Assembly: GCA_018389105.1 (NCBI GenBank)
Contig: JACATO010002189.1
Coordinates: 979,001-1,043,000 of the forward strand
Length of the DNA stretch: 64,000 nucleotides
Origin: Nautilus pompilius
Taxonomy: Eukaryota; Mollusca; Cephalopoda; Nautilida; Nautilidae
Direction of reading: 5' to 3'
In this document: piece by piece, positions 3,516-47,192 of the stretch
Position numbering within the stretch: the stretch's first letter is position 1
Layout: the number at the start of each line of letters is the position of its first letter
Position numbers and translations under genes: made by a program
Notes under the pieces: model-generated
Database searches by the model: none
Seen by the model: the letters and a program-made list of their open reading frames with translations, nothing else
Told to the model about the DNA's origin: nothing

Positions 3516-3568
3516 TTTAAATGGTCTAGAAAGGGCTTCTTAAGGACTCGGTGGAGAATCAATGGCTG
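3516..3568 (+). CDS. INPP5A: INPP5A exon encoding FKWSRKGFLRTRWRINGC
   Basis: This 53-nt exon lies between a pyrimidine-rich acceptor (ctctctcttag) and a consensus donor (TG|gtaagtaa). It encodes a segment matching the vertebrate KWSRKGFIRTRWCIADC stretch that precedes the first core strand of the phosphatase domain. The last two bases (TG) complete a Cys codon with the first base of the next exon. It is the first exon I can find in the window. The upstream coding sequence, including the residues just before the Lys-Trp, is not visible in bases 1-3515. Confidence 0.9.
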
Positions 3569-21500: not shown

Positions 21501-24500
21501 TTGGATAATTTCGCATGCTTCAGTGAGTGCATAAACTTTCCATTGCCAAATCATCAAACATTCTGGCAGTAATTTCTGTAATCTGTTTTAAATGAATAAT
21601 TTTCCATTTTATTTCAGAAAATAACATACTTTTTGTCGTTTTTTATTTATTAATTAAAGCAAGTTCAATGACTTTATCTATAGATAAGTTAAATTTGAGT
21701 AAAAAGTCGAAGCCTGAACTTCCAGATTGAAAATGTATTGATTTATACAACAAAGAGTATGATATACTCAGGTATTTATATTGGCTTTCCTTTCATTTCA
21801 GTTGCACCAGTTTGATACAGAACTTAATGCTTTTAAAAACAGACTGTCTGAATTTGAAATTACTTTCCCACCTAGGTAAGAGAAGTTATTTTAGTTTAGG
21901 GGTGTTTGGAGTCTTAAAAAAAAGGGGTTTCCATCCATCGATAATTTTAATTAAAAAAAACAAAAAATTCTTTAATACTTGGAGGCTGACATACTGCTCT
22001 GAAGTATCAGAATTTTTCTATACCACATGTAATGCAGATCCTGGATATACTTGCAGTAAAGAATGATTGTGCCAATCTTTAATACAGTGTACTGACATTC
22101 ATAGTATTGCTTTGTAGGAATGGCTTCTTCGTAAGAACTTGGTTCAGGTTGCATACATTGCTGTAATTTTATTTCTTAATACCCATTACAGATTTCATCA
22201 TGGACATAACTTGCCTTTCTAAGACATGCCGAATATCTTTAACCTAAAAACAACTTTTTAGAGAATTTAAGTTTTCATTTATATTCATATCAAAGCAATG
22301 ATATTGGTTGGTAGTTGACAACAACTGTTTTGGGAGGAATGTGGTCAGGTATGCTTTTGAGGCTGACCATCTGGAACAAGTGTACCAACTGACCAAATGT
22401 AAACACATCTGAAATCTATTGTTGATTCCATTGATTTTTTTTCTTCAGATTTTTTTTTTGCTTTAACCCGCTTTGCCCTGATACCAGTAGTACACCTTTA
22501 ACAAATGGCTCGCATAAGCAAAAGAAGGACTTATGTGAATGTAAACTGTTTTATCACCCTAACATTTGTAATTTCAGTTCATGCTAGAGAAAATGGCTAT
22601 TCATTGATATACATAGTCTTTTGTTGATAGTTACTATTCTGTTATCCATTAACCCATTGCAGATAGAGAAGAATTTGAAACCCTAGATTAAGTATTGCAC
22701 AGCAGTTTATTAAATTTTCTTTGTAATTTTTTATTTTTCAGTTGGGTTAGAATTGTTGGTTGAAGTTATACTAATGCAAAAGTGAGAACAGTTTTATTCC
22801 AAGATTAAGTGCTAAAACAGTCCATGTTAACTCGTTAAATGAGTTTCTCTGATTTCTGATTTTAACCCATGCTCAAATACATTTGTGCTCATAGAACTAT
22901 GTGAAAAATGTTTCACATTTATATTGAAGTGGATATTAGGACATGTCAGTCTACCAGACCTTGAAAAAGTTGATGAAATTGCCAAAAATGGTAATAAATC
23001 ACCTCAGAGTTAAGCTGGTGTTGTCTCTGTGAGCATGAAAGCATATCAACTGAAAATTAAGGATCTTCTAGAGTTGAATCTGAAAACAATATATACCTTG
23101 ATTCAAAGAAATTAGAATCAACAGTTCTACAAAAAGATTTTCACAAGATACCCAGAAATCTATAGGCACAGATTAGCAGACTGCATTCTGGTCATTCTCT
23201 TCTAAATGCCCACGCTCATAGGATAGTAAAGGCTACTTCAAAGACATGCTTCAATTGAAACATGGCTTATCTCAGAGTATGTTAAAAAGATACAGGCTGG
23301 CCCTGAGATGCTTTCTAAAACATTTTAAAAAAATAAGTTTCCAAGATTGAATTGACATCTGTTGGGAGGACAATAGGATTACTACTATGAAATGTCAGAG
23401 GACCACCAAGCCCGCAAGCCCTTGGACTTAAACAAACTGTAATGTTGTCTCTAAACCTTAGCTTTTGTAAATGCTCTAAAATATTACTTTGATAAGGCTC
23501 ACCTATGCAAAAACACTACCAGTAAGTTTTCAAAAAAATTTTAATTATCTTTCAGTTACCCTTTTAGTGAGGATACAACTGATGGGTTATCTTACATGAA
23601 GACTCGATGTCCCTCGTGGTGTGATCGCATCTTGCTATCACATACTGCAAAAGATATTATTCTGCAGGTGAGTAGTTAATGGTTGGGGGGCTGCGGTTAA
23701 TAAAGACAATGAAACAAAGCGAGAGTTTCTTGAACATTATAAGAGGAGGATGCTAATTTTAAGTTTTCTAAGTTGAAATAAATTTGTAAATGAATAAATC
23801 TTGATATTTAGAAGGCAGTTGCAAACTAGAATTTAAAACCTGTCATAATTAAAATTCTATTAAGACCTTTCACAAAAATTTCTAAAAATATATATATATA
23901 TTTGCAAATTTTTATCTGTCCTATTCCACTTAGAAAATACTGATTTTTTTTCCTCCTTGGTTGTCAACAGTTTTATATAATTTTTTTTTCCTTAGAAATC
24001 TTACCTCTCTTTTGGAGGGTTTTCCTTCCCTCTCTTTATCAGTTCATTGTCTTTGCCAGATTTCTGGGTTGTAATACTTCCTGGTCAACAAATCTTTACC
24101 ACTACTACCTCACTGACATCATTTCTTCCAACAGAACCTGCCAAGTTATATCAAAACTTTATTAGTAGTAAAAGAACCAATTAATGGATGAATCTTTTCT
24201 CGTTGCCATCAAGGTTCAGTCCTTAAAAGGACTGTTTTTGTGTGTGCGCACATCAGTTGCAAATGTTTTTCTACAGCAGGCATTTCTATTTTTAGATTGT
24301 ACAAGTGTCCTGAGCTGGTTTTGAACACGTGATCTGTTGGTTGCTAAGTTTTTTCATGTAATGAGATTTTTGTTTTTGCTTTTTTACCATTATTTCTGGC
24401 AACAAAGTGAGCTGAAGCATTGGATGAAAACCTGTATAAAAAGCTCGGGTTTGAGACCACACCTAGGCCACTTGTGCAATCTGAAAATTGAAACCACTGG

Positions 24501-27500
24501 CTTTTCAGTTAGTCCAACTACACATAAGGTGATGAGAAATGCCTAGCCTAACCCTGTATTCTCTGTAAATGATACATCTCAGGAACCTTTTGTTCTCATC
24601 TTCGTATCAAAACTGTACATTAATGGTACATTCTCAGTGTTGCAAAATAATAACAACATTTCTTTTTTAAAACTGAAATGAAACACTTTTTTCTTTTAAA
24701 AAAACTCAATTTTTGCTTAAATTTTTAGTTCTAAAGGAATTTTTCTGTTTTCAAAGTGGACCATAACGTGTCCCCGAGCTGCCTGCCTGATTGAAAATTC
24801 ATAACATATAAATATAATTTAAAAACTCAGAAATATGTTTCTCCATACAATAATTTCTAAATAAAAGAATGGTGGTGGTGGTCTTCTGTCTTTTTTTTTT
24901 AAAAAAAATCTTAAAGTTCTGAACATTCTGTCACTTGCTGTTTCATGATATTTGGAAATTATGTTACTGTTGTCTTTACATATTCTGTTTTTCTAGTGTG
25001 GTTTTGCTTGTTTTAAAATTCAAATTATATAATTTATAGTGTATGAAGTTTGTTCTACATAGCTTTTGTTACTTAAATGTGCACATCTGAATATCAGATT
25101 GTTTTTTGTATAGTAGGTAGGTAGAGTAGGTGTGTGAGAGAGATTTCACATTAATGGTATGGCAATATTTCAGAAAAGCTGTTTTGAAGTTAACTGTCAT
25201 TGACTTATCTGGGGTTTTCTTCTTTACATCACTTCAATGTTCACTTTTAATCGCACATGGATTTATGTTTAGAAGTCATTTCAACTGAGAGAACAACATA
25301 GCATATTTTCATTTGACTTCAATATACAAATCCCTTTGAATTAAAGAGGCTTTCCCTGGATTATTTATAATGTGTAGTCTTCATAATTGCATGATATAGT
25401 GTTTTACTTTACTTTACATTTAAGGAAGGAATATACATAGATCATAAATTTGTTACTTTTGATGTTTTAAAATGGCGAGAGAGAGAGCAGTGCAAACTTT
25501 TGATTAGCCACAGAACATTACATGGCATTTTGCTAAATCAGTACATTTATCTTTTGTTCCCCAACAATTGGTATTCCACCCATGTACTAGATGAAAATAG
25601 CATTTTAGAATCTATTTTGTTTTCTTAAAATTTTTTTCCTTGATTTGGAGAAAAATAAAATTTGTTTGTTTACTTTTTTAATTCTAACTTTTTTTTTTTC
25701 TTAAATTTTAGGATGATGCACACAACAAAACGAAATATGACCTCATTGGAAAAGAGATTTGTATGGGTGATCACAAGGTAGTATTTTGTTTTCATTCATC
25801 TTCATGGTTTAGGAATTTATCTACTGTTTTGTAGATCTCTTATTTTGTTTTCCCACCCTGCAGCACTTCCTTTGAATATTTCAATTATTATTCAAAATAC
25901 TGTACCTGTATGAGAGAGGGTGAGTGAAACTGACATGAAAAAATCATTGAAAAAACCTATTCAAATCAGTGGTCTTTGTGTGCATAAACTATAGAAAAAT
26001 CAACTTTGTCAATAAATATCTTGCTAACTTATAGGGGTTCCCTTGTCTAACATATAAGGATTCCGTTGCCATCTGTTTCTCTGCACAAAGAGGAAGTTAT
26101 CCATGAGTTTATATTGCCTTGTCTTCCTGGGGGGAAAAGAATTGGAAAGTAATGTGCAATTCTTATTAGGCTTGCTGGCAGTACTGCATACAATGTGTGT
26201 AAGAATGGTGATGGCAGAATGGTCGCTTCAACATGTAACCAACAAACAGAGACAGTGTTGAAGCTTGGCAATAGAAGGGAAACTTCAAACTTCTGTCTCA
26301 TGTGATATTGACTTTTAAAAAAATGGTAAAAGAATAACAAACTTGTGAAAGTTAAATGGTTTAATATGAATGGCACTAGCATTAAAAAAAGAAAATCTTA
26401 ATTATCTAAAAATTCTCAAGACCACATTGATCAACAAAACTTGTTTATACCACAGTATTTGTACATAAAATCCTTTTCAGATTTATATATAATAAAACCA
26501 GAAAATAAAAAAGCTTTTATAGCATCATCAGTATATTATTACTTGTAATATTTCTGTAAATGTTCCTCTATTTTAATAATTTTTAGAAATTGAATTTAAC
26601 TATTATTACCTATACTAAGAGACATTAAAAATGCTGTATGAATTTTCTCTTTCTTTTTTTTTTTTTTGCAAGTACTGAATGAAAAATTTGATAAAAATAA
26701 ATCATTTTGACAAATGTGTTGATTGTTTTGATGAACATTTACAATTTTCATCTTGAAGCTGTCATCTTGAATGAACAGAGCATGTAGTCATTTGCCCATA
26801 TGTCCCTGGTGAAATGCCAAATGGGCATGTGCTTTTCTCACAGAAGCCCTTTAAAGGCATTAGCACAAATGATTCCATCATACACATGTGACTGACAAAT
26901 GCTGAAAGGAAGAAATCGGGTTTTGGGAATGGCAAATGTTGACACATTGATTCTCAACATAGCCCATTGAAATACCATCCATCATTGACATTGTACTATA
27001 ATCTGCATTAGTGTTTAAGAAGACTAGGGACTATTTTAGACCAACCAAACACCCAGGTGCCCCAGATTGACAACTAGAGCACAAGATCGCAACATCTTCA
27101 AACACAATGATTCCCCATTGCTGGAAACACTGCCAGTGGTGTTACTGATACGAGACAAAGAAACAAGATATTCCTTTCTGTCATTTTTACTGTGGACAGA
27201 TCCTGCTTCATCGCCACTGTTTTGCTTGGCAAGGTAATGTTGGGCTTTGCATCAAATAAAACTGGATCATATAGGATGGAATGACATAATCCTTTCTGAT
27301 GAATCAAATTTGTGTTTTGCTGATGGATGCATCAGAGTTTATCAGTGAAAGCATAGAAATTTGATCTAAGCTTATGGCTATAAGCACAAACTTGAATGTT
27401 CAGAGTTACACTTGACTTCCTGCAACTTTCTTTGGTACTGAACCATGGTGAATCTTGGAGGTTGATCTTGCATGACAATGCATGTCTTGACACAGCCAGA

Positions 27501-30500
27501 ATGACACAGGTCTTTTTAAATAAATACTACATCCAGGTTTGACTTAGTGCATCAAATGTGATAGTTACTGCAGCCACTGTGGAATGTTGCAAATTGACAC
27601 AAGTATTGCAATAGCAATGCATAGCCATCTCAGCAGCTCAAGTTAACAGTTACAAATATGCCTTGCTGCTAATAGTATAAGCCACCTATTGATAATTGAA
27701 TACTACTTATGTTCATTTTGAACAACTGCAAAATCATCCTCTGTTCAGCTTTGTTAGTAGATGGGCAATTGTGATTGGAGGTAAAATGTATATAAGAAAA
27801 TAATACAACAGTGATGCTCTGTATATAGAATATTATATGGGTCTATTTTATTAATGTAGTAAAGACAAATAACATTGTTCTTGCAAAGGACTGTTACTTC
27901 TTTTTTGAAATTTTTGTTTTTTCTTTCTTAGCATAGTAGTAATAGTATTTTTATCCTGTGCATTAGAAACCAAAAGAAAGAGACTGGTGTAAGAAATTAA
28001 AAGTATCATTTTAATTATAAATAAACTAACATGTAAAAATATGTGAAAATATGATTATGTTAGACTAACAGAATTGTAATATGACAGAATTTCAGCATGG
28101 AAATAGTGGAGTCAAATGCAGAAGTTTTGGGTTTGTGAACAGATTACTTTAGGTAAACATGTGTGCATACATGTTTTATATAAAATGTGTTCAGATGGTT
28201 TGAATGACATTAAACAAATTTTGTTGAGGTGATTCTACAAAAGAAATGTTTTATTGAATTATTTTCTTTATTTTTATGCAGCCTGTGTTCCTTCTTTTCC
28301 ATCTGAAGATTGGATCAGGTAAATTGGACGGCTTCTCTTACCCACCCACCAGATTATCCCGGCGAAACACACTGTCTATAAACGGGGAGGATATGAGTGA
28401 TATAGAAATAGAACAGCTGAACATTCATGATTTTGCCATCTTTGAACACGAGCAGGAATTTACTTCAGAATTTCGTAACAACATTCGACACAAGTCAAAT
28501 TGCAGTCCTAGTAATTCTGAATCTTTACCTTCTGGTCTCCCAAAATTCCAGATTTCCTTTCATGATATAGCTAAGCAGGTAATGTGTGTGGAAAGTGTTA
28601 TCCGAAAGTGGCCCCGGCGGCAAAGACATCATAGCAGCTCTTCGGAGGAGTCTTCCGAGGGTAGCAGTGAGTTTGTAAACCGTAACATAAATGCTGAGGA
28701 TAATCTAGATCAGGCATCCACAACCACACTCCTCTCATCTGATTTTATTAACATAGAAATACCAGAAAGGGAAGGCAGTTCTGAAAATCCAACTTTCTTT
28801 GTTCCCGAAGAGACATCTGGTGGCGGAGGGAATCACAATCTTGATTATGTTCAGCATGCTCCCAGTAATGTTAGAGATATGACTGATGATCATGCATGTG
28901 TCTGTCAACATAGTAAGAAGACTCCGTTCTCTGGTGTGACGCTTGCTAAGGACAACTCCTTCCGCTGCCCTTGTGTTATCCTGTGATATTTATGGTGCCT
29001 TGTACTGCCAATGTGAGTTTTATTCGCACTTGCTTACATTTGCTTTTCTTCCCTTTTTTGTTGTTGTTGCTTTTGTTTTATTTATTTTACTTGTATCACT
29101 GTTAGAATACTTTGTTTTCTGCCATCACAAGTGAAAATATCTTCATTAGAATTCAATTTCATCATCTTATGAGAAACCATTATATATCTTGGCCAGAATC
29201 CTGTATTTTGGCTGTCTTTCCATTTCTTGCTAAAAAAATATATATATAAAAGAAAATGTCAAATTATAATTGATGAGGATTAGTTTGGGTTTTTCTCTTC
29301 TTATGTAGTAACTGAACTAACTAATACAACTACGTTTCAGGAAAATTACTGTTTTGTTATCATCATGGTTTAGTCTTAAGGAAGTCTGTTTTGGCATGCA
29401 GTAATAAAAAAGAAAAACATCATTTACTAATTACCAGCTCTACCAACCTGAACATGTCACAACTAGAAGCACATACTGTAAAAGATTTGCAAATTATTGT
29501 CATTGTGCACCAAAATAGTCCTGACTACAGCCTGATGACAACAGCAGGAAAAGCATTATCAAAATGTCAGTCACTTTACTACTAAAAGAGTGATGGGGAA
29601 AAGCTTGAATTGTCTATATTTGCCTTAATAACCTGAGTATTTTAGCCATGTTTCATTGCACACACCCTAAAACATTAAAGACAGCAAATACTTGAAAAGT
29701 CAATTGAAGATCTGGATTTTACCTTTTATAGGATGAAAATGCAAGGTGACCAATAAGTCATGACAGTTTAATTACTTTTGCTTGTTTAGTCCACAGATGT
29801 ACCTCATTCTCACTGTTGTTTTTCTGTATAAGACAGAGAGGAGATTGTATCCATACATCCAGTTTCTTTATTTCTAGGCATGGCTGCTCCCAAAAGCATA
29901 CATACCTCTGAAATGGAGCAGTGAGTTTTCCAATGCCAAGATGTCTGGTGGAGCATTTGTGACAGTATTTCTGAAGTTTTGCTTTAATTCTGGTAGTGTT
30001 CTAGGGTTTGTTTCATATACCTGAGATTTAAGGTAGCCCTACAAAAAACAATCTATCGGAGAGACAATGGAATGTCACTAAAGCAAGAAATACAAATGAC
30101 GTGGTTGGGAAGGAAACACTGCTGACATCATTTTCACTGTCTCTTGTTGGTTGGCATGTTGCACCATCTTGTTGAAACCAGGTTTCTTTCATATTGAAGC
30201 TTTTATACCATAACTCTTGGATTAATTGCTGCAACATCTGTTTGTACTGCTTGCCATCAACAGCAACTAATCCATATGTCTAGTGTAATCACTAAGAAAT
30301 AAAGAAATAGTCTATGGGCACAATCTCCCATCTGTCCTACACACAATCAACAGTATATCTATGGGCTTTTGAAATTAAATGTTAAAAAATAGTGTCCTGA
30401 CTTAATGATTACCCTGTATTGATTTTTTTTAAAATTCTGTATATCTTTTAAAATTATTATTGGAATTTTAAAAGTTTAATAAAAAGCTGTTGTTCATTTT

Positions 30501-33500
30501 AAAGAACTTGAGCTTACATTATTAAAATTTTGTCTATACATTGTTTTTTATAGTCTATACTCCATAATAATGAAGGAAATTATTTTAAAAAATACTGAAA
30601 TTTTTTTTTTTAATTTCTGAAATTGTATTTCCTCTGTTTACTGGCTTAAGAGTTATTTTGTTTTCATTCATATTGTTGGCAGAACAGTATTGTGCATACA
30701 ATATATATATATATATATATATATAAAGCAATTATATATTTTTTCCAACTAGTCTGTATCTCTTATAAATATTGCCATAAAATATTAAAAGTGGCATCAA
30801 GCATCTCATTTTATTTCTTTTTCTACCATCGACAAGCAGGAGGAATGTTATGGCTTGTATAGCAACGTTTTAAGCTTCTTGGCTCACCCAATCTGTTTGT
30901 TTTTTTTTTGGTTTATTATGTTACGTGTATTGGCTAAAGAACGTTATGTATAAAATATATATTAATTTTTTTTTAATTTTATGGAAGATAAATTATTGAC
31001 AAATTTCAAATCTTAGATTAATAAATTCTCACAAGCTTTTTTTTCAACTTAAGCTGTTGATCCATTGCTGATGTAGCTGATGTGACCAATGGTACGATAA
31101 ATAAACAAACAATAAAAATAAAAAGAAAATGACCTGTAGTTCTACTGCATGTACTATATAATGTTAGGTTAAACAGAGAATAGGTGTCCGGTGATCAGGG
31201 TTGGTTTAATAATCCCTATTTTTGATGTGAATGAAGGTACATAGGTTCCAAAATTTTGCACATTTATAGATTGGTGGCCTTATCTGAAAATGTTGCTTTA
31301 TAAGCCTATCTTAGTTAAATATATGTTAAATGAATCTTCATTTTTAAGGGAGGGAATACTTGCATCAATCTTGAATTATGTAGCTTACAATATTTATCTC
31401 TGGGAAATATTTGTTGAATAAAAAAGAAAAAAGACCATAAGGTATTAATAATTATTTATTTATGCACAAATTTAAAGCTCAAATTTTGTTTGGTTTTTGT
31501 ATTTTATGTTAATCCAACTTGTAAGTGATGTGGACCATGTTTGAAATTGGCTCACTAGACCTGCCCTTAGCAGCCATAACGGCTGTAAAGTAAATAGCTG
31601 ATTTGCACCACCATCCAACTTACTACTTACATAACTCATGCTGTAAAGGTATTTGTGTAGGTATTCTTTGTTTGTTTGTTTCTTTATTTTTTCTGTACTT
31701 TATTTCCCTTCCTTTCTTCACAAGCTGCTTATATCTTGTTGTTGTATGTCTCTTTTTTTGGCCTTCTTGCTGACTTTCCAAATGCACAAACTTGTCTGGT
31801 GTCTCTGTGTTGTACTCTGCTTCTTTGGATGTCATCACTTTTTCTAAGCATTTACAACTTCTTCTTTGCAGCAGCAGCAGCATTACTGTACAAAAGAATA
31901 GTGTGGAAAGTACAGCTTTCTGTCTGTCTGTCTCTCTCTCCATTGCTTCAGTGACAATGCAAGAATAAGTGTGGAAAAGAAACCACTGATCAAAAAAGAC
32001 CAAGCTTTCACTGAGTTATTTTATTTACAGTCTCTTAAAATAAAATTGTTGCATGTAAAAGCACAATAGTCTTTTTGTGTGAGTTTTATCTTTAATGTTA
32101 CTCTGCACCTGTTAGGCTTGCATTGTGTCAGGTCCGTGTGCAGTCGATTTTCCCCACTCCAACTTTGTTTTCATTTATGTGCAGTGAACTGCACAAGCTG
32201 CTTTTCAGTAAATTTTCAAAGAAACATAAAATCTCAATATTGTAAAAATGCATTTAATTTGCAAGATAATTTACTTATAAAATACATAAGTACACCAGTT
32301 CACTTTTCTCACAAGCTTTCATAAGTCGCCATTTTGAATAGTCTGGTTCTCAAACATTACACACATTCACACCTGTCAAAGATAATCTCTCTCTGTTTTT
32401 TTTTTCTTAGCATGTTTTATTCAGATGTTGGAATATGCAGGTTTGCAGTATTTGACAGCATTAATATTAAAGAGATATCCATAGCTATATTTCTATTGTT
32501 ACATGTTCTCACAGAACTGTTTGATGTTGTGAAACCAGTGAGAGTTCTGTTTACTATTGTCTAATTGTGCAATTCCTCTTAATTTTTGACATGGTGATAA
32601 TTTATACCTGTTAGTTGCTCCAACATTGAAATCTGGATAGTTATCTCTCTATGTTCCTATACAAGAATTTTATCTACTAAACAAAGAATAACATTATACA
32701 ATTTTAAATTTATTTTCTTGTGGGTGCAAAGATTTGTTTTATTTACTTTTGTTCTTTTTAAAGAATACCACTGACTTTTGGAGGTAAGTGTATCCACTTA
32801 TTGCACCACTACACTACCTCCAACAATACCCCAACTTTCACCTTCCTTTGTTTTAATATTCAGAGTAGATATTTCCAAGAATTTATCCTTTTCACATCAT
32901 GGCAGGCATGTAGACATTGCACACACTATACATTCTCTCTCTCTCTCTCTCTCAAACCTTGAACAGCATTGTTATTCTTAGCAGAAGTTAACTAAAAAAA
33001 AAAGAAGAATTTGTTCATTTATAATGGTTTCATAATTTAAGTTTTGAATGAATTTAGCTTATTTGCTAGTAGGTGTATTTGAAAATATAATAAACAGCAG
33101 ATCTCCAATTTTAATGTTTTTACAGAAAATATACATTATTATAGATTGCATGCATTCAGCATGATTTAAGCAGACATTTTATAAGTTTTTTATTTAGTAT
33201 TTACTACGTATAATTTGTCATTTGTTGTTGTTTTTTTTTTTACTTATTCAAATTTTTCCCCATAAATCTTTTCTTTTTTTTTTTTAGGTTCAAAGAAATT
33301 TTATTTAAATTTCGATTAGTAACAAAAATTGATAATTTTTTTAAAATGAAAACTTATGGTCTTAAAGGATTTTAGCCAAAATTAGTTTACATTGAGACTG
33401 CGAGCCGGCCACCCTCTCTGGAGGGAGAGAGGGGGAGGTAGGATTTTCTCAATGCTCTGACCAGTAGAAAGGTGTTTTCTCACCCAGAAATTTGGAGTCG

Positions 33501-36500
33501 AAAGAATTTAGTTAAACAAAAGCATATATTTATCTTATTTACTTGTAGCTCCTTTCCGTACCTGAAAATATAAGTTTTGTCGACGTAGCGCTCACGAGAA
33601 GTTACTTATTTTAAAATCGTCCATTAGTAAGGGTGGCTGGCGGCCGATCTTCCGCACGTGTGGTCGGTCATCTTGAAGGTACGGAGGGGGCAGCGAGTTC
33701 ACTTCACTTCAACAGTTGGCAAAGCGAGTAGCCAAACGGAACGGTGGACCACTACAGTCAGTAACTTACACCAGGCATCACCAACCCCAGAAAAACTGTA
33801 GATAGAAGCCATAAAAGAAACAATCAGTTCATCCCCCCCCCCCAACACACACACACACACTGGCCCTTGAAAGTTTTGGAAGCTTTTACTCTACCATACA
33901 GCCAAGATGACAGTTTTACTTTTGAACTGCTACAAATTTATTTAGCAAAAATAGATAAGAATTCATCATGAAAAGCATCATCATCATCCTATGTCATCAG
34001 TCTAGCATTGTTACCATGGTCAAAGAATCCTCTATGCTGGGGGTTGGTGAAGGGGACACCAGCTCCCTTCCTCTTGGACATACCTACTGAAAGTCCCTAT
34101 TCATTTTTAGATGTGGGAGGAAACCAACATGGTTGGCTGGCTGGTGAAGATGAGCAAGAAGAAACCATGCTGCAGGGGTACGCCAAATTGAATCAGTTCT
34201 AACCTTAGCAGTCCAGGAGGCAGACCACTACACCACCCCATGAAAAAGATATGATAGTGGTAAATCATTTTTTACTGTTTAAGGTTATATTTATTTGCTA
34301 TAATTTGATGACTTGAAACTATTTCTATTTTTTTCTACTATGTTATTAGTATCCTGGGATATTGTTGAAGGTTGCTTTGAGAGATCATATTTTCTGTATT
34401 TATCTGATTTATTTTAACAATTATCTGTAGTAATTTAATGTTTGGAACACCATGCATGTGCATTTGTAATGTACATAAGAAAATGTACACAGCAGGATCT
34501 GGCCAGATGAATTTCTGCCTAGAAAACAGCCAAACAACAAATGATAACTAAATTATACTATAAATTATTTAATTGAATAGAACTTTGTTAATAGTTTATT
34601 AGTGAAAAAATACATTAGACTTGATGATGTAGATCTTGCACTATAGCTATAACACTTTCATTTGGCAAAGTAGAAATAGTATTTAGATTGTCATGTGGAA
34701 AGTAGTACTACATGTCTTGATTATAATTTAGCTTGATCTTAGAAAACATTTTTAGATGAGTCGAATAAACTACCAAAGGGTAGAGTTGACAGCGATAACT
34801 AAGTCACACTAAAAACTGTTGATATAAAGATTTCTTTTCTGTTTCTTGCTACTGTCTTGTAATAAAAAAACTAAACTTTAGCCAGTACAGAGCTTTTAGT
34901 TTTTCACCAAGACTTTAGCTACATTTGTCTTTTCTCTCCAGGTAGCTTGCATGAAGTGGAAACCAACATGTTAATGTTAAAAAGATTTTTTGAATTTGAT
35001 TAAATGAATACAGGGTGCAGGTGTGCTTTGGTAAAGAACACATTAATTTAAATAGTTTGTATGGGGGACTTTTAACTATATTAATGGAATTCATGCAGTA
35101 AAAAGTGTTCTTCACTGGTAGGAATGGAAGTCTCGGTATTTTTCAAAAGGATTTTGACTGTTCTCTCTCTGTTTGTGCTGGTTTTTTTCTTTTTTTTAAG
35201 GTAGGAATGACTACATTAAATTTATTTGCTTTTGCTTTCATCTAACATATGAAGACGTTGAAGAGAGAGAAACAAAACACAAATTTCAAAGCTGTATATG
35301 ACATACTCTTTAATTTCCCATGCATTCTACTTCATTTCAATCATTTTAAAAGATAGACACTCAAAATTACTTAGCATAAGGAAATGAAATGTTGCAAATC
35401 TTTCTAATGAATTATTCATATTGTGTATATTCAAGAAAAGGGGAGGTAAGCTGCTTTCTAAAATTTGGCAAATTGATTGTGTCAAAGATGTGGAAGACAT
35501 TGATGAAACATAGCAGCAATGGAATTCCTCAAGCTACTTACAAACTCTATTTGGACAGTCATGAGTCGGTCTGTGGTGAAGTGAATGCAGAAGAGGATGC
35601 AGTTTCTGATTGTTTGGTTTTTTTAATAAACCATAGTGAGACGAAAGCTAGACCTGTATGTTAATTGTTGTTGAATATTTCACCTGAATGGATCAAATTG
35701 TTTTCCTCTCCAATATATTTCAAATGATTTTTTTCTTTTTTAAAAAATTTTTTAACTATTTATGAATTTTTTACTGTACGTCAAACTAAGAAAACAACAG
35801 AAAACATTTATATTTAGATCAAGATTAATAATGCTGATATCTGTTTTTATGCACCCCTGCCAGTCTGTTAGATTTAGAACTATTTGTTTTGCTTAAAAAA
35901 TGGTAATCTGTTAATATTTTGGGTTGGTTGGATTACTAGTATTTCCACCCATTAAGATATGTTAATCTGATGTTAACTTATTACTGATTCTAAAACAAAA
36001 TGAGTATCAAATGTGTACCTTAGAAATGACACTAGCCGAACAAAAACCCCATATATTTCTTTGTTGTTTTATTTTCCAGAATGTCTCTACTGCAGAGTTT
36101 TTGATGCATCTCTGAAATTTAAACTGAATATTAGGCCCGTCTGTCTTTCTACTTGTTGCATTTTGATAAAACTTTCTGACGCTCTTTATTGCATGTCTTT
36201 GTTTAGTTTCTAGTTGTGTATAGCATCAGCCACAGATGAATGAATTTCTCTTTTGATTATGTACAAAGTTGTGATAAGTATTTAAGTATCAGAAGAAAGA
36301 TATTCGCTTGGATGTTTTAAACTAAAGATCCAGAAATTAAAATTCAACATTTTTTTTTATCAAATTAGATTATAGGCACCCGATAATGCTACTGTGCATT
36401 ATCATAAGCCCAAATGGTCTCAGCAAGTTGGATTTTCTTAAGACTGCTGCAGAGTAGTGCAAAATTAGAAATAGTGTTCAGGCATGGCTTGCTTGTGGAA

Positions 36501-39316
36501 AATTAATACATTCTTACAACTTTCTCAGTGCTGCATAATAATAGTCTTTTATATAAAAAATTTCCAAGAAATAAAATCTTTTCTCGTTGCTCTTTGCAAT
36601 AGAATAATGAATAGAAATGAAGATCTTGGAATTGATAGTGTCTGTTGTTGTTTTTTTCTTCTCTTTTTTCTGAAGTAAACCAAGTTTTTTTTTGGTTAAG
36701 TTATACACAGCAGTTTATTTTCTATAACAGAAGTTATACCATTTCTAAGAATTAGTAACAGATCATTTGTCTGGGTTTGTAACTAATAATTTTTTTTCTT
36801 CCTTTTAATCTTTTTATGCCACTTTATTTCATTTACTTTGATAAAACTGAATACAATTTTACTGAAATCTTAGTTTTGTTTGTTTCTTTGAAAACGTTTT
36901 TTTTTTTCCAATTCTTTCTTAAATTCATACTTTTTAAGTAAATTATTTTGGCACCACTTGTATTTATTTGATTTGATTTTCTTATTGACTTCACAGAATT
37001 GTTCACAACCAACTCCATCTTTTATTTGGTTAGATTCTCAAGTCACTAAAAACAATGAATGGCATGCTAAAACTAAAAGACTTTCTGACAGTGATAAATG
37101 TGAAAATTTCTTTTACCAAACATGATGTAGCATTCGTTGATGCTTCAGCTCAACTTCTCAAGTCGACTAAGAATAGAAAAAGGAACAAACAAACAATTCT
37201 TTTTAACAATTATTTTGATACTGCTTTTTTTCTTTCACTTCTGGCCATGAACTGATGATAATATTTATAATTTAAAAAAAAAACAATAGTGTCAGGTTGC
37301 TGAGGTTTGTTCAGTCGATATCAGAGGTGTGGTTTTCTGTAAGCAGGTCCCATTTCATCAGTTGCTCATTCTACATCATATCATTCTTCTAGGTGAGATG
37401 TGTAATGCTAGCTTTCTATTTCTTTTCTTTTCTTTTTTTCTTCTATCATAATTTACCAGATTGGTTCCTCTATTTTATCTCAGTCTCCTGATGCTCGCAG
37501 ACAAATTGGTTTATTTTTTCTGCACTTTGATGCATTCTCTTATCCTCCAACTTCTGCACGTTTCATGTTGATTCTTATGGATTTGATCACTCTTCTTTCC
37601 CAGCCTGCTAGATCTTACCATGGATTTTCTCATTCACCTCATCTTTGACTGACCTAGTTGTATCATTTTTTTCATGTGGGTTCCTCTATCATAACCTTTT
37701 TTCTTCCTTTCTTCAATTTTTTTTAACTTTAACCTTCATGTTTGTCTTTTCTTTTTTAACATGCCAAAATTACAGGAGACTGGCAAAGTCTGTTTTACCT
37801 GTATTCTCTGTGACAGTACTCACCCATACCATACCACATACCATTCCTTTTGACCGCAGTTCTTAATCAACTTTTACTTCCTTTATGAACAGGAAGCTTT
37901 CTTGTCATGTGACAGATCAGATGATTCTATTTTTACACTGTTTACTTTTTTTTCTAATGGTTCTTTGACTAATTCTTCATGTTGCTGTTCCTATAGTAAT
38001 TTATTTTATCATTTTTTCTCCTCTTTTCCCAGCTGGAATTACCTTTTGATTTTCTTCTTACTGTTCATTCAGTTTATATCTGCACTTAGGTATATTTAAG
38101 TTTGGCTTTCATGCAAGTTGTTTCACATGTGATATCTTTGAACAACTTTGTTTTCGTGTGCTTCTGTCAAAACTCAAGCAACTTTAGATGAAAAGTTGGC
38201 TTTTAATTTAAGTATAAATCAATAAAAAAATGCAGCAGCATTTGCTATAATGAAATCGTGTCATTACTGAGTGGTTTTAATGGCACCTCAGTATTTCATG
38301 CAGTACAGAACCCAACATCTTAACTATTCCCTATTTTCAAATCAGATTTTTCTAAGTTCTTTTTTAGTATCTGTGCTTGGCTTCATTATTTCCTGCCTAT
38401 CAACTGACTCTCCTGTCTGTGTAGTTTTTTTATAGATTGTCTGACTCCCAACAATTAAATAAGGATTCTACTCATTGCACAACCTTGACTTTTTCTTGGA
38501 ATTGTTTCATCTTGTTTTCTTAAGTCTTTTCATCCAAGCAGATTTTTTTTTTCCTACTTTGGAACACTAGTGTGGCTTAACCCACTCATCCACCACCTGA
38601 AACTTCTTGCTGATTGTTTACCCACCAATCATCAAGGTACTTGATAGATGCATGTACACTCTTTGCTCTTGCTATCTAGCAATGAAAACTTGCATGAAAA
38701 ACCATTGAAACAGCTATAGATGCCAAGCCATGGGAAGTATGGAACATGGTCAGTTTTACCTGATCAGGATTACTGTGGTTTTATTTGAAAACTTTAATTA
38801 TCTCTTGCCAGGACACGTACACACACAAGAATTATAATTTTCGCAATTATTTTGTAAGAAAAAAAAGTACTCTCAGAGTGGGATACTTTACTGAATTTTT
38901 TTTTTTTTTGCATAATATATATTTTGTAATATTTTTTTGAACTGATAGTTTTACATAGAATGGTACTACACTTATTACTGAAAAATTGTAATTTGGGGGT
39001 GGGTTGATGGCTTACACAATTTTGCATGCACATTTTATGCAAACTTGCACTATATGTGGAGAAATTTGCCAAGTAGACATCCAATCAAAAGTAATGCTAA
39101 ATATGATTTTAATATGTGATGTTTCTTTTTAAAAATATCATTTCAGGCAAAACCGAAGTGTTGAAACCTGCTTCAAGCTTATCTCAGCCCATCCTGACCA
39201 CTGACATCATCGTGCCAACAACACAGGTGAAAATCTCACAGGTAGACACCACTAAGTACATACACGTTCAGCAGAATGGCTCTTCAGTGCGGGTGTTTCG
39301 GGAAACCTCTGTATAA
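3516..39316 (+). CDS. INPP5A: Inositol polyphosphate-5-phosphatase A (type I InsP3 5-phosphatase), 3' part of a spliced gene with two alternative C-termini
   Basis: The product removes the 5-phosphate of Ins(1,4,5)P3 and Ins(1,3,4,5)P4, ending InsP3-driven calcium release; the vertebrate protein is held at membranes by a C-terminal prenyl group. Exons 3516-3568, 9736-9799, 9951-10006, 11402-11486, 14093-14182, 15257-15334, 21802-21875, 23556-23667, 25712-25777 and 28282-28986 (or 28282-28318 plus 39147-39316) join in one frame with GT-AG introns. They match the vertebrate protein from KWSRKGF onward: NIHLFHDASN, GDFNFRLD, CPSWCDRIL and CMGDHKPVF all appear in order. GDFNFRL and CPSWCDRIL are the two signatures of the Mg2+-dependent 5-phosphatase fold, and the catalytic residues look intact. 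The window encodes 226 shared residues, then 234 (CVIL form) or 68 (ETSV form). The N-terminal exons and promoter lie upstream of base 1. Family assignment is very secure; the isoform structure is inferred from splice signals alone. Confidence 0.95.
4690..4970 (+). repeat. tRNA-derived SINE copy 2 (most complete)
   Basis: The 5' part (GGCATGGTAGTTTAGGAG ... GGCCTGAGTTCAAATCC) resembles a tRNA with A and B boxes. It continues with CAGCTCGGTTTGGCATATC, TTTTTACCATGG, CTCCCACATATAAAAATGAAGG and a tail ending near GAGCATGGAAGAGG. At least six other diverged copies in this window share these blocks, which identifies it as an interspersed element. Confidence 0.72.
7165..7285. mobile_element. Palindromic MITE, copy 1
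   Basis: The core at 7192-7264 is an imperfect inverted repeat. GCATTTAGATGAAACTCAGC at the left is complementary, with mismatches, to the GGCCAGGCTTCATTTGAACA at the right. The same sequence recurs near 15.95-16.02 kb. A short, foldback, non-coding repeat is the form of a miniature DNA transposon; the parent family is not identified. Confidence 0.6.
7716..7775. repeat. (CA)n microsatellite followed by (TA)n
   Basis: An uninterrupted CA run at about 7731-7754 is flanked by imperfect CA units and followed by tatatata. Frames through it spell Thr-His repeats and are not genes. Confidence 0.9.
8673..8730. repeat. Perfect 16-bp inverted repeat with 26-nt loop
   Basis: TGTATAAAATTAGATA at 8673-8688 is exactly complementary to TATCTAATTTTATACA at 8715-8730. 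Transcribed within the INPP5A pre-mRNA it would form a stable hairpin. It could be the ends of a tiny foldback element or a small structured RNA. Confidence 0.8.
9736..9799 (+). CDS. INPP5A: INPP5A exon encoding SFDLVNIHLFHDASN...
   Basis: The exon has a polypyrimidine acceptor (ctttttcag) and donor TCT|gtaagt. After completing the split Cys codon it encodes SFDLVNIHLFHDASNIVAMQS, almost identical to the vertebrate segment with NxHLxH, a conserved strand in 5-phosphatases that contributes to the active-site face. It ends in phase 0. Only 151 bases separate it from the next exon. Confidence 0.95.
9951..10006 (+). CDS. INPP5A: INPP5A exon encoding SPSLYSANRQQALNHMLNR
   Basis: Acceptor tgttccag and donor AACAG|gtagct bound 56 nt encoding SPSLYSANRQQALNHMLN plus two bases of an Arg codon. 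It corresponds to the vertebrate SPSVYSGIRHKALGYVLDR helix that follows the NxHLxH strand. The preceding intron, 151 nt, is by far the shortest in the gene. Confidence 0.93.
10007..11401. other. Intron of INPP5A (1.4 kb)
   Basis: AT-rich intron with a poly-G run at 10739-10748 and short TG/TA stretches. No element recognised. Confidence 0.7.
11402..11486 (+). CDS. INPP5A: INPP5A exon with 5-phosphatase signature 1 (GDFNFRLD)
   Basis: Acceptor ctacttacag and donor CAG|gtaaaa bound 85 nt. The encoded segment includes FIYGDFNFRLDSHLLVQ, carrying the first of the two signature motifs of Mg2+-dependent inositol polyphosphate 5-phosphatases. The Asp and Asn of GDFN are the family's metal and phosphate-coordinating catalytic residues, and both are present. 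It ends in phase 0. Confidence 0.96.
11487..14092. other. Intron of INPP5A (2.6 kb)
   Basis: AT-rich intron with poly-T tracts and a TTA trinucleotide run near 13.97 kb. No element or extra exon recognised. Confidence 0.7.
14093..14182 (+). CDS. INPP5A: INPP5A exon encoding ELTSKTVPHHTKGKKDQ...
   Basis: This 90-nt phase 0 exon has a strong T-rich acceptor (tttttttttcag) and donor CAG|gtatgt. It encodes ELTSKTVPHHTKGKKDQ followed by a segment ending TEDGNGQ. It aligns with a weakly conserved connecting region of vertebrate INPP5A (ETLCTKAT... VVKLIFRESDN). Lysine and histidine are enriched. Support comes mainly from position, frame and clean splice sites. Confidence 0.88.
14183..15256. other. 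Intron of INPP5A (1.1 kb)
   Basis: AT-rich intron. A C/A-rich run (ccccccaaaaaaaaaa) lies near 14.43 kb. Nothing else is recognised. Confidence 0.7.
15257..15334 (+). CDS. INPP5A: INPP5A exon encoding VVLTVESKAFDYHDKHSEFF...
   Basis: This 78-nt phase 0 exon encodes VVLTVESKAFDYHDKHSEFF and ends NTNNW, matching the vertebrate KVMLQLEKKLFDYFNQEVFRD region. The donor TGG|gtaagt is near consensus. The acceptor (tattatttaag) has a weak pyrimidine tract compared with the other exons, but reading frame and homology on both sides support it. Confidence 0.9.
15935..16050. mobile_element. Palindromic MITE, copy 2
   Basis: GGATGTTCAAATGAAACCTG...GCTGAAATAGCATCGTTGTA...ATGGTATCCAGACTGG...TTTCATTTCAATGTCC matches the copy at 7.2 kb over about 75 bases, with the same internal symmetry. 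The shared CTGAAATARCA...AATGGTATC centre rules out chance similarity. Confidence 0.62.
16200..16610. other. GC- and CpG-rich pocket inside an INPP5A intron, origin unknown
   Basis: Within an AT-rich, CpG-poor intron, about 400 bases switch abruptly to GC-rich sequence with many CpG (cctcgggtgg, gaggcgccgaaacggcc, cgatgcgcc). Open frames exist on both strands (16190-16459 minus; 16239-16487 plus), but their products show no family I recognise. A recently inserted element or a processed fragment is the likeliest source. Confidence 0.5.
17017..17153. mobile_element. piggyBac-type MITE with TTAA target duplication
   Basis: The unit begins TTAACCCTTTGAAGAGTA and ends TACTTCTCAAGGGTTAA. The ends are inverted repeats of about 13 bp, and TTAA at each edge is the hallmark target-site duplication of piggyBac elements, whose termini typically read CCCTTTG. 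There is no coding capacity in 137 bp, so this would be a non-autonomous derivative. Confidence 0.7.
18295..18480 (+). repeat. tRNA-derived SINE copy 3
   Basis: GGGCCTGGGTTTCTTTTCTC, GACTGATTTGGTTGGGTGA and a following CTGTACC align with the B-box, CAGCTYGGTTTGGC and ACCATGG blocks of the copy at 4.7 kb. It sits in the 6.5 kb intron before exon 21802. Confidence 0.5.
20990..21520 (-). pseudogene. pogo/Tigger-like transposase remnant (N-terminal DNA-binding part)
   Basis: The minus-strand frame from 21516 to 21037 is open except for one TAA at 21319. It contains ETFKLEVAKFAKEN...VTDWQKAK, the FKLKVVxFAxExG...IRxWRK helix-turn-helix of pogo/CENP-B-like transposases. Later LCFRFMQRKEL...MAQKL matches the second CENP-B-type domain (WCFRFMKRxxL...TxxAQKLP). 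The DDE catalytic part is absent. The remnant lies antisense within an INPP5A intron. A domesticated exon is less likely, given the internal stop and missing remainder. Confidence 0.68.
21802..21875 (+). CDS. INPP5A: INPP5A exon encoding LHQFDTELNAFKNRLSEFEI
   Basis: Acceptor cctttcatttcag and donor CCTAG|gtaaga bound 74 nt. The product segment, LHQFDTELNAFKNRLSEFEI then TFPP, matches vertebrate LLEFDKELSVFKDRLYELDISFPP. The last two bases (AG) complete a Ser codon in the next exon, giving FPPSYPFSED at the junction. That is the conserved substrate-loop region before signature 2. Confidence 0.95.
21876..23555. other. Intron of INPP5A (1.7 kb)
   Basis: AT-rich at its left. The part from about 22.95 to 23.45 kb is less AT-rich and may be an old transposon, but I could not match it to a family. 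Confidence 0.6.
23556..23667 (+). CDS. INPP5A: INPP5A exon with 5-phosphatase signature 2 (CPSWCDRIL)
   Basis: This 112-nt exon has acceptor attatctttcag and donor CAG|gtgagt. It encodes YPFSEDTTDGLSYMKTRC followed by PSWCDRILLSHTAKDIILQ. The R-x-P-(A/S)-W-C-D-R-I-L block is the second diagnostic motif of inositol polyphosphate 5-phosphatases, and the Asp and Arg of CDR are catalytic in the family. All key residues are retained. Confidence 0.96.
23668..25711. other. Intron of INPP5A (2.0 kb)
   Basis: AT-rich intron; a possible highly decayed SINE lies near 24.42-24.54 kb (GGGTTTGAGACC-type box). Nothing else is recognised. Confidence 0.6.
25712..25777 (+). CDS. INPP5A: INPP5A exon encoding DDAHNKTKYDLIGKEICMGD...
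   Basis: This 66-nt phase 0 exon has acceptor cttaaattttag and donor AAG|gtagta. It encodes DDAHNKTKYDLIGKEICMGD then HK, matching the vertebrate TYDHIGPNVCMGDHK stretch. The Asp-His pair of GDHKPV belongs to the catalytic centre of the fold and is split from PVF by the next intron. Confidence 0.95.
25778..28281. other. Intron of INPP5A (2.5 kb)
   Basis: Contains a decayed Tc1-like element (about 26.99-27.64 kb); otherwise AT-rich with no recognisable feature. Confidence 0.6.
26990..27640 (+). pseudogene. Tc1-like transposase remnant
   Basis: Forward fragments in shifting frames include RLTTRAQDRNIF (the RVTTxxQDRYI link after the DNA-binding domain, about 27055-27105). DIILSDESNLCF followed by DGCIRVY lies at about 27280-27345, and LILHDNACLDTARMTQVFL, the second catalytic Asp block, at about 27460-27520. 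Several stops and shifts make it non-functional, and the third catalytic block is not seen. It lies in the sense orientation inside the INPP5A intron before exon 28282. Confidence 0.68.
28282..28318 (+). CDS. INPP5A: INPP5A short form of exon 28282, spliced to the ETSV exon
   Basis: The sequence ATCAG|gtaaat at 28314-28324 is a near-consensus 5' splice site inside the reading frame. Using it leaves 12 codons (PVFLLFHLKIGS) plus one base. The joint with 39147 restores Gly (G|GC) and gives KIGSG-KTEVLK. The split falls at the Gly-Lys position where the short vertebrate tail also begins. No cDNA is available here, so use of the site is inferred. Confidence 0.72.
28282..28986 (+). CDS. INPP5A: INPP5A terminal exon, read-through form ending in CaaX motif CVIL
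   Basis: After acceptor tttttatgcag, the frame runs PVFLLFHLKIGSG and then continues for 221 residues to TGA at 28984-28986. The last residues are SFRCPCVIL. CVIL is a canonical CaaX box; a terminal Leu favours geranylgeranylation in the known rule, whereas vertebrate INPP5A ends CVVQ. A second Cys two residues upstream could be palmitoylated. The tail is polar and likely disordered: a basic patch KWPRRQRHH, a SSSSEESSEGSSE cluster resembling casein kinase 2 sites, and a Gly run. No known domain is recognised in it. It is far longer than the vertebrate tail, which is only about a dozen residues after the same Gly-Lys. A donor inside the exon (after 28318) allows an alternative ending. Confidence 0.88.
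   Translation, partial: PVFLLFHLKIGSGKLDGFSYPPTRLSRRNTLSINGEDMSDIEIEQLNIHDFAIFEHEQEFTSEFRNNIRHKSNCSPSNSESLPSGLPKFQISFHDIAKQVMCVESVIRKWPRRQRHHSSSSEESSEGSSEFVNRNINAEDNLDQASTTTLLSSDFINIEIPEREGSSENPTFFVPEETSGGGGNHNLDYVQHAPSNVRDMTDDHACVCQHSKKTPFSGVTLAKDNSFRCPCVIL
29403..29408 (+). terminator. Candidate polyadenylation signal for the CVIL isoform
   Basis: An AATAAA 417 nt after the CVIL stop is the first plain hexamer downstream. Others lie at 30478-30483 and beyond. If the read-through isoform is made, one of these must end it inside what is the last intron for the other isoform. Confidence 0.3.
29740..30418 (-). mobile_element. Internally deleted mariner-like element with terminal inverted repeats
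   Basis: The minus strand encodes ETWFQQDGATCQPTRDS (catalytic WFQQDGATCHTAR block, near 30150-30185). After frame breaks come HCLSDRLFFVGLP and NKP...IKAKLQKY, matching the DLTPLDYFLWGYLK...NKP region of mariner relatives. The ends form an imperfect inverted repeat of about 28 bp: GGTGACCAATAAGTCATGAC at 29743-29762 against the complement of GTCCTGACTTAATGATTACC at 30394-30413. The AATAAGTCATGACA-type end is typical of the group. At about 680 bp it has lost the N-terminal half. Confidence 0.72.
30701..30725. repeat. (AT)n microsatellite
   Basis: An uninterrupted alternating AT run of about 25 bases. Confidence 0.9.
32934..32953. repeat. (CT)n microsatellite
   Basis: About ten CT units in the last INPP5A intron. 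Confidence 0.9.
33390..33750. promoter_or_regulatory. CpG-rich island in the last INPP5A intron
   Basis: A sharp local rise in G+C and CpG (gcgagccggcc, gtcgacgtagcgctcacg, ggcggccgatcttccgcacgtgtggtcgg) stands out from CpG-poor flanks. It carries an E-box CACGTG at 33655-33660 and a following GTCATCTTGAAGG. In a genome with methylated gene bodies, such an island could be an unmethylated internal promoter. A young GC-rich insertion is the alternative. Confidence 0.4.
33833..33860. repeat. Poly-C run followed by (AC)n
   Basis: Eleven C residues followed by about eight AC units, just 3' of the CpG island. Confidence 0.9.
34000..34245 (-). repeat. tRNA-derived SINE copy 4
   Basis: On the minus strand it begins GGGGTGGTGTAGTGGTCTGC and has GGTTAGAACTGATTCAA at the B-box position. 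Then come ATTTGGCGTACCCC, GCATGGTTTCTTC and CCTCCCACATCTAAAAATGA. This copy best preserves the tRNA-like head, including a TGGTGTAGTGGTCTG A-box-like stretch. Confidence 0.72.
39147..39316 (+). CDS. INPP5A: INPP5A alternative terminal exon ending in PDZ-ligand motif ETSV
   Basis: Acceptor aaaatatcatttcag precedes 170 nt that, joined to 28318, stay open for 55 codons to TAA at 39314-39316. The tail begins KTEVLKPASSLSQPILTT, is rich in Thr, Val and Gln, and ends VRVFRETSV. It has no Cys and so no CaaX box. The last four residues E-T-S-V fit the class I PDZ-binding pattern (S/T at -2, Val at 0). The exon's base and codon use are coding-like, in contrast to the surrounding AT-rich intron, and it has more CpG than its flanks. 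About 8 kb of AT-rich sequence with several poly(A) signals follows as a probable 3' UTR. I recognise no homologous domain; the assignment rests on frame, splice signals and composition. Confidence 0.7.
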
Positions 39317-41059
39317 TCACAGCGCTGAATAGAATAGCACTAAGGAAAGCAATGTTGCCCTATAACTCTGTTCAGGCCTGGTGGCACAGAGATCTAGAAG
39401 GATGCCGGCTTTAACACGATCGCAAAATTTTCAAGTGAAAGGAAGATCAGCTTTGATTGCCATCATTCATGAATTTAGTTGCTGCACCTTGGAGACACAT
39501 GTTGGCATTATGATGTGCTGTGCATCTTATGCAGAAATGAGATAAGTAGAGCACTTATTGTGATTGGAAGGGTGGTAATTTTGAAAGGTGTTTATGTTTT
39601 CAAATATATTATAGATTTCTTCTCATTTGAGATTTTCTGTTTCCTGTTTTGAGAAAGAAAAAAAAAGGGAGAGGAAAACATGTCAGTGCATTATGCCAGT
39701 CATTGCCTGTAGAAAGTCCTTGAATAGTTTCTGCCAGCATTGTTCTTTGCACATTCAGATTTTACGCAAAATTCACAGCAAGCTCATGCAGAAAATTACC
39801 GGGTATTGTTGGGCTCTTAAGTTTTACCATCAACCATAGAATGTAAATTTCAGCCTCAAGTCATCATTTTTTGTTTTTGAAAAAAAATCAACTGGCAATT
39901 GATTTGATTCTACACAGACTGTAGACCATCTGGTGGTACTTGCCAGTACAAAACTGCTTCAGATGCAGCATTAGCAATATAAAAGTGCAATGTCGAGCCA
40001 GTATTGGAGACAGTGTTTAAAAGAAGAAAAAAACAGACCTGGAGTCTTTCTCCTTTTTTTTTTTATTTGTTTTTATGCAACAACTTAAAGTTGGCTCTTT
40101 CCAGCATGCGCAATGGTTTCTTGGAGCCATTTTTCTAAATGTGTGAATCCTGCATGCTCAACTGTTGGTTTATGTATTTCATTACGTTGTGTTCTTATTT
40201 TAACAAATGCATCGTTTGACTGAGCCACAGAAGATTAGATTTAGATTTTCACAAATACTTTCTTCTAAATACGCTGGCCCCACAGTTGGTAAGCACAAGT
40301 TTCCTGTGTGTTTTCTGAGACTCACTACTTTCATTCTAAAAGCAAAATAAGTCTTATATTTAAAAATTTACTGTTTAAAAAAGTGTAAAATGCTAATTTT
40401 ATATTAGTCTTGGCTATATTTGTCAAACACCATTTATTGTTCTCTTGTAATTTTCTGTCTTTATTTATTAGTATATTTCATTATTCTATATACTACAGTT
40501 GCTTAGATAGAATGACATAAACACTACATTGTTAATGGCAAGTTATTGACATAATGACTCTTTGTTTAAATCTATTTTGATTAACTAAGGCAAGTCATGA
40601 CATAAAATTATTAATGCCAAATTCAGAAAGATTTTAGTTATTTCTCTAATCTAGATTTAGATATTGTAATAGTCTCATCAATATTTCCAATCAGCATCAT
40701 CTTCAAACATACTCTCAGTAACTTATAAACATCTTGTTCAGAACTGGCTTGAACATAAAACATAGATGAAGATTGTTGAAACTGCTAATCAAGGCATTTT
40801 ATTTTTTTTAAGGTTGAAACCTGTAAATTTTTCTGTGGCTTATTAAGGACAGTTTTCTATTACTAGTCATCTTTCTATAAGATAATCAACTTTCACAGCT
40901 TATCCAGACAGTTGATGCAATTGTTAGTACATTATTTACTGTTGAAAAACTATTAGATATGCTATGGAAAATTAAATTTAAAAAATATGCAAACGCACCT
41001 GAATTAATCCTTTTAAGCTCACTTTCTCGAATATTGGCATTGATTACAAAATAACAGTT

Positions 41060-41340
41060 GCAGTAAAGGCTAAATGCATAGTGTGTCAGCCTATGGTAGT
41101 TGAAGGTTCAAGTTTGAATCCTGTTAGAACCCAGCTTGGTTTGGCAACTTCACTTAGCATGGTTTTTGTACCATTTTTGTCTGTGAGGATTTCTCCCCCA
41201 TCTAAACCAAGGAGTTTTAGTGGGATCTGTTGTTAAGTTGACACACACACACACACGGCATATTTGTGCCAGCCATTGTTTTTGCTGCCATGTAACCATT
41301 GTCTCCACCTGACTAATATTGTAGATCATGGCCTACATTG
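41060..41340 (+). repeat. tRNA-derived SINE copy 5
   Basis: GAAGGTTCAAGTTTGAATCC (B box), AACCCAGCTTGGTTTGGCAA, TTTTTGTACC and CTCCCCCATCTAAACCAAGG match the family blocks in order. A short (AC)n run at about 41240-41258 interrupts it. It lies within the presumed 3' UTR. Confidence 0.68.
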
Positions 41341-42659: not shown

Positions 42660-42790
42660 AGTTTTCAATATGTTAGGCAGAGGAAACTGAAGTGCTCAAA
42701 AGAAACAATGCTAGGGATGTATGCCAAACCAAGCTGGTCTTGACCCAGATTTAAACCCAATCCCTCAAACTAATTATTGATTGCCATCTT
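42660..42790 (-). repeat. tRNA-derived SINE copy 6 (partial)
   Basis: Minus-strand GAGGGATTGGGTTTAAATCT (B box) is followed by GACCAGCTTGGTTTGGCATA and CATCCC, the head-to-body junction of the family. The rest is diverged. Confidence 0.6.
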
Positions 42791-47186: not shown

Positions 47187-47192
47187 AATAAA
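47187..47192 (+). terminator. Candidate distal polyadenylation signal (AATAAA)
   Basis: An AATAAA embedded in TGTAAATAAAAAAG is followed within 30 nt by a TG-rich stretch (gctgctgtggt), the layout of a cleavage/polyadenylation site. It would end the long ETSV-isoform transcript. A second AATAAA lies at 47356, followed by TTTTTATTTTTTG-type U-rich sequence, and is an alternative. Confidence 0.4.

Follow-up and report, generated by a model that had tools for sequence, protein, structure and literature searches.

The choice between the secreted and membrane forms of IgM mu is made at a composite terminal exon, with intronic polyadenylation. INPP5A limits InsP3-driven Ca2+ release, and the location of the human enzyme is set by its C-terminal lipids, as described in the available part of one study (PMC12450637). 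According to the same part of that study, in the human C-terminus CVVQ Cys409 is farnesylated and Cys408 is palmitoylated; the Cys409 mutant is off the membranes and is found in the nucleoplasm; and the Gln at the last CaaX position precludes geranylgeranyl transfer (PMC12450637). For the lamins of lophotrochozoans (annelids), the accessible text describes one gene that gives CaaX and CaaX-less forms via alternative splicing (PMC10125929). The alternative 3'-terminal exons E6 and E7 of Cdc42 were assigned separate roles in neurons, as far as the available text goes (PMC4870516). No report of splicing at the INPP5A C-terminus, or of a CaaX/PDZ switch, was found in the titles and abstract beginnings of the open-licence papers listed, up to 20 per search. 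In the accessible part of a paper on mGlu1-associated proteins, Inpp5a is one table row (PMC10177021).

The INPP5A locus and its surroundings

The window, meaning the whole stretch of DNA that was analysed, is 64 kb long (contig C2087, 979001-1043000) and ends only 266 bases short of the contig end, in an animal genome of 728 Mb. Translated with the invertebrate mitochondrial code, one COX1 copy of the assembly has a molluscan look. INPP5A lies on its + strand. All comparisons with the human protein rest on the human INPP5A sequence that served as the query. In tblastn searches, its matches were collinear over a region that begins about 82 kb ahead of the window and reaches as far as 28.3 kb into it; the best matches had E values of 3e-12 and 1e-9, and order along the gene was used to place a number of weak matches (E 0.02-1). 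Seven matches lie upstream of 28282, in order, at 3519, 9737, 9951, 11400, 21802, 23554, and 25736.

Based on these matches and on splice-site scores, + strand exons were placed at 3516..3568 (KWSRKGFLRTRWRI, in the upstream catalytic part), 9736..9799 (SFDLVNIHLFHDASNIVAMQS), 11402..11486 (containing the GDFNFRL motif), 21802..21875 (LHQFDTELNAFKNRLSEFEITFPP), 23556..23667 (containing the RCPSWCDRIL motif), and 25712..25777 (with GDHK at its end). A further coding stretch, whose borders are not fixed, was found on the same strand at 9951..10007 (SPSLYSANRQQALNHMLNR; matches of E 0.72 and E 0.18), and 15254..15328 is a possible coding stretch with a weak match (E 1.1). The 5-phosphatase catalytic motifs GDFNFRL, RCPSWCDRIL, and GDHK, together with their flanking stretches, are all present and in order. 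The hand-joined exons matched the Pfam family Exo_endo_phos2 (PF22669, E 1.3e-18), as well as the solved 5-phosphatase structures of SHIP2, OCRL, and type II. The collinear matches, the Pfam family and the structures all bear out the name INPP5A, which a sequence-only reading had given to this gene. Judged by its sequence, the gene is the orthologue of INPP5A, the type I inositol 1,4,5-trisphosphate 5-phosphatase, and InsP3 hydrolysis is its predicted activity.

No second copy of the gene was found. In a protein search of the genome, 8/8 matches of the joined protein fall in this same gene, and the block that holds the predicted ETSV exon (see below) has one match, which is itself; the searches found no retrocopy or paralogue carrying the spliced junction. 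As expected for an animal gene, viral_contigs yielded no relative when either tail (ETSV or CVIL) or the catalytic stretches served as the query.

Several other features were observed in the window and in the assembly. The GC content is raised in blocks at 15500-17600 and 33100-34600, inside or beyond the INPP5A introns; these may be repeats or unseen exons. From 48000 to 64000 the GC content increases from about 0.31 to 0.38-0.48, and the seven open frames of this part had no Pfam match at E 0.01. A degenerate GA-rich tandem array with a period of 110 occupies 61115-61408. The stretch 41060-41240 is reminiscent of the head of a tRNA-derived SINE, with a box B-like GGTTCAAGTTTGAATCC; ARAGORN found no tRNA in the window. 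Across the assembly, 117 COX1 matches were found on many contigs (e.g. C112:262789-263529), and some have common break points: 14 span model positions 196-283 exactly, and over 20 span 281/282 to 345-347. Perhaps a piece of mitochondrial DNA has spread through the genome as a repeat, or the common break points may stem from how the search splits each copy.

Two readings of the exon at 28282

The exon at 28282 comes after TTTTTATGCAG, and the preceding exon ends with GDHK at 25777. It encodes PVFLLFHLKIGSGK, for which the counterpart in the human query sequence is PVFLAFRIMPGAGK; at this exon the human KPVFLAFRIMPGAGK was aligned with QPVFLLFHLKIGSGK, with an E value of 3.6 if taken alone. The part common to both predicted forms, recognised by sequence reading and tblastn, is 28282..28318 (PVFLLFHLKIGSG, + strand). 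In the unspliced reading, the frame remains open through 28319..28986 to a stop at 28984-28986, and the C-terminus is RCPCVIL. In the spliced reading, the 37 exon bases end in phase 1 at CAG/GTAAAT (28318/28319; internal 5' splice site at 28319..28324) and are joined to the AG acceptor at 39147. The 28318-39147 join is in frame and gives GKTEVLKPASS...VRVFRETSV, 56 residues, with a stop at 39314-39316; the predicted downstream coding exon is 39147..39316 (+ strand).

Re-reading of the sequence confirmed the donor (ATCAG/gtaaat), the phase, the in-frame join, and the ETSV end that had been described. The claim that the junction rebuilds Gly-Lys also held, since both readings give Gly-Lys, at its position in the human INPP5A query. 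An internal 5' splice site is present, both ends are open to a stop, and the downstream acceptor, a weak one, is in phase. As read from the DNA, the layout is one composite terminal exon plus one downstream alternative, and the choice between them would be one of splicing versus intronic polyadenylation. The sequence-only reading had proposed a switch by alternative terminal exons; two ends can indeed be read from one gene, but they are not two separate terminal exons, rather a composite exon versus a downstream exon.

Coding evidence for the CVIL and ETSV tails

The CVIL frame is the longest in the window, with 242 codons from stop to stop and 222 from Gly-Lys on. None of the 60 order-3 simulations of 48 kb reached 242 codons (longest frames: mean 140, maximum 212), which makes it very likely that the CVIL tail codes for protein. 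Among the 82 distinct stops reached from phase-1 acceptors in 28380-63900 with frames of at least 40 aa, a strict CaaX end was found at one, the CVIL stop itself. The coding score of the tail is modest: three 56-codon pieces, which together cover all but its last 54 codons, were equalled by 28/565, 73/565, and 65/565 controls (sum of codon and residue scores). Over the full length of the tail, one of the antisense frames outscores the sense frame. Neither tail had a convincing match in Pfam or PDB; the CVIL frame gave three weak Pfam rows, and even the best of them, SPICE (E 0.032), is below its cut-off. Two AATAAA hexamers lie 417 and 1312 bases past the CVIL stop (29403 and 30298), within a probable 3' UTR at 28987..30400 (+ strand), whose end was placed where the GC content falls past about 30400.

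As a real protein end, the CVIL tail is well supported, and the earlier identification of CVIL followed by a stop as a CaaX end was upheld. The tail fits the known CaaX anchor of INPP5A, with prenylation itself a prediction. A CaaX box with Leu at the X position directs geranylgeranyl transfer, and the final Leu predicts that the CVIL Cys is geranylgeranylated rather than farnesylated. The idea of CaaX anchoring as in vertebrate INPP5A thus stands in part: the CaaX end is present, but the predicted lipid is geranylgeranyl, whereas the vertebrate CVVQ is farnesylated. The Cys at -6, two residues ahead of the CVIL Cys, could be a palmitoylation site. The tail after Gly-Lys has 220 residues, which are Ser/acid-rich and probably disordered; in human INPP5A we take it to be 12 residues.

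The donor at 28318/28319 ranks 24 of 2635 GT sites, and of six further donors of the gene that were scored, four fall below it. In the genome, its 9-mer occurs roughly twice as often as the reversed control (7984 and 8143 versus 3817 and 3824). TCA-GGT-AAA could resemble a donor merely as one spelling of the conserved Ser-Gly-Lys. One alternative explanation builds on this. It holds that the gene makes only the CVIL form, that the Ser-Gly-Lys codons account for the donor-like string, and that the frame at 39147-39316, in the 3' flank, is open by chance.

Several observations are consistent with this alternative. An open frame is weak evidence for the ETSV exon, because many phase-1 acceptors open such frames: 54 pyrimidine-AG acceptors in 28380-48000 are open for at least 40 codons in phase 1, including seven inside the CVIL frame and one at the ETSV exon. 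The 39147 acceptor is the lowest of the eight scored in the gene, with adenines in its pyrimidine tract; scores as good or better were obtained at 955/2658 AG sites and at 193/515 of those inside the intron. A weak acceptor would also suit a regulated exon, regulation being a supposition here. The frame contrast of the ETSV exon is ordinary (86/565 controls were as high, and one antisense frame is slightly above the sense frame), and its residue make-up alone was equalled by 36/565 controls. No AATAAA or ATTAAA was found between the ETSV stop at 39316 and 40971, the first hexamer lying 1655 bases past the stop. Moreover, the acceptor at 29341 also rebuilds Gly-Lys in phase 1, with 80 open codons (29341-29585), in what is likely untranslated sequence 3' of the CVIL stop; its residue make-up appears non-coding by eye.

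The joint features of the ETSV exon argue against a chance frame. Controls were taken from 194 kb of the locus on both strands (388 kb), with the two exon blocks omitted on the + strand, and comprised 10,754 pyrimidine-AG acceptors. A Gly-Lys start was given by 113 of these, and by nine of the 987 with a frame of at least 40 codons; 40/987 had a class I PDZ end, and none combined the two (0/987). This zero is unsurprising in itself, because by independence only 0.36 would be expected in 388 kb; scaled to a one-strand 10.8-kb intron, the expectation is about 0.01. With frames of at least 10 codons, a Gly-Lys start together with a class I end occurred in 5/6132 control acceptors. Inside the intron, Gly-Lys is given by 3/273 acceptors (29341, 29548, and 39147). 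The ETSV end of the predicted splice product matches the class I PDZ ligand pattern, [S/T]-x-hydrophobic.

The coding score points in the same direction. The second version of this score was derived from 3319 codons in 20/140 kinase matches of the genome, hand-picked among the longer ones, and its controls excluded the GC-rich 48-64 kb part. The ETSV exon was equalled or exceeded by 11/565 stop-free control stretches on codon and residue scores, and by 12/565 on codon choice alone. The joined known INPP5A exons scored -0.12, below the 0.277 of the ETSV exon, which shows that the score suits this gene poorly. A first, cruder score, with 153 training codons and with controls that included the GC-rich 48-64 kb part, found 173/615 controls as high as the ETSV exon, and did not separate the known exons either. 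The block 39147-40330, with its end set by eye, has a GC content of 0.387, a level attained by 2.6% of windows of the same size. The stretch 39120-40330 matches nothing but itself in 728 Mb, and 39317..40330 (+ strand; extent set by eye from the GC table) may be the 3' UTR that goes with the ETSV end.

The combination of features at the ETSV exon is uncommon. On several modest signs, 39147-39316 is probably a real exon; this estimate was tempered because 0/987 is near the expected 0.36 and because the coding score places the known exons lower than the ETSV exon. The existence of the CVIL form alone is unlikely.

Proposed explanation and comparison with known systems

We consider the chances about even that this INPP5A orthologue has two C-termini from one composite terminal exon: a lipid-anchored CVIL end, and a lipid-free ETSV end with a class I PDZ ligand. 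Most likely, cleavage/polyadenylation within the composite exon would compete with the 10.8-kb splice. If cleavage and polyadenylation came before use of the 28318 donor, the exon would run on for 220 residues after Gly-Lys and end with CPCVIL. Geranylgeranylation of the CVIL Cys, possibly with palmitoylation of the Cys two residues earlier, might then anchor the enzyme to membranes, as in vertebrates. If splicing at the donor came first, about 10.8 kb would be removed and the 39147 exon would add 54 residues after Gly-Lys, ending with ETSV. This form would have no lipid site and would carry a class I PDZ ligand. We infer that it might bind PDZ domains, and that tissue or synaptic targeting and regulated switching might follow.

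Both forms might also exist while ETSV binds no PDZ domain in the cell, so that the downstream exon merely drops the lipid anchor and the enzyme becomes soluble or nuclear. Human INPP5A without its farnesyl Cys leaves the membranes and gathers in the nucleoplasm (PMC12450637), so the ETSV form is expected in solution or in the nucleus, save where a PDZ partner retains it. Class I-like ends were found at 26/491 of the stops that phase-1 acceptors can reach, a count that includes the ETSV exon, and the class I form occurs at 24/617 distinct control stops. However, the stricter E[ST]x[VIL] end was found at only 1/617 control stops, and we regard the loss of the anchor as the sole effect of the exon as unlikely. 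That the ETSV form is the ordinary product, with the CVIL reading an intron retention or premature polyadenylation product that yields little protein, agrees with a donor better than 4/6 others in the gene, but is very improbable given 222 open codons, a length with a low chance of arising, and an end of the same signal class as that of vertebrate INPP5A.

The explanation with both a lipid-anchored and a PDZ-binding form has a wider consequence, which we put forward tentatively and at somewhat less than even expectation. In a single INPP5A gene, intronic polyadenylation versus a 10.8-kb splice might send the InsP3-degrading domain to membranes (geranylgeranyl/palmitoyl) or to PDZ scaffolds (ETSV), and in this group of animals RNA processing would determine where Ca2+ signals are shut off. 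If RNA data agree, one gene could put the enzyme in two places of the cell. If true, a locus with both a lipid end and a PDZ-ligand end would offer a natural way to ask whether Ca2+ signals depend on where InsP3 is broken down, and CaaX loss by splicing would be extended from lamins to a signalling enzyme.

Like IgM mu, the locus as read from the DNA has a 5' splice site inside a polyadenylatable exon and a predicted downstream terminal exon; the gene and the outcome are different. In Cdc42, both alternative ends are lipid signals, whereas INPP5A would offer a lipid versus a PDZ ligand, from a composite exon. The two are alike as signalling proteins with alternative terminal exons, as the accessible text on Cdc42 describes (PMC4870516). 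The catalytic motifs, the Gly-Lys before the tail, and the CaaX end with a nearby Cys are shared with vertebrate INPP5A (human query sequence; PMC12450637). However, the CVIL tail here has 220 residues and ends with Leu, whereas the human tail ends with Gln (farnesyl), and a second, lipid-free ETSV end is predicted here. The annelid lamins likewise have one CaaX and one CaaX-less end from one gene (PMC10125929), the latter being a prediction here. The lamin arrangement differs in that the alternative exon precedes the CaaX exon and is left out of the CaaX form, and in that aromatic residues abound in most of the other ends; the product is a structural protein, whereas it is an enzyme here (PMC10125929). 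Judged against the papers listed, a CaaX/PDZ choice in INPP5A would add a new form to the related tail choices known in lamins and Cdc42.
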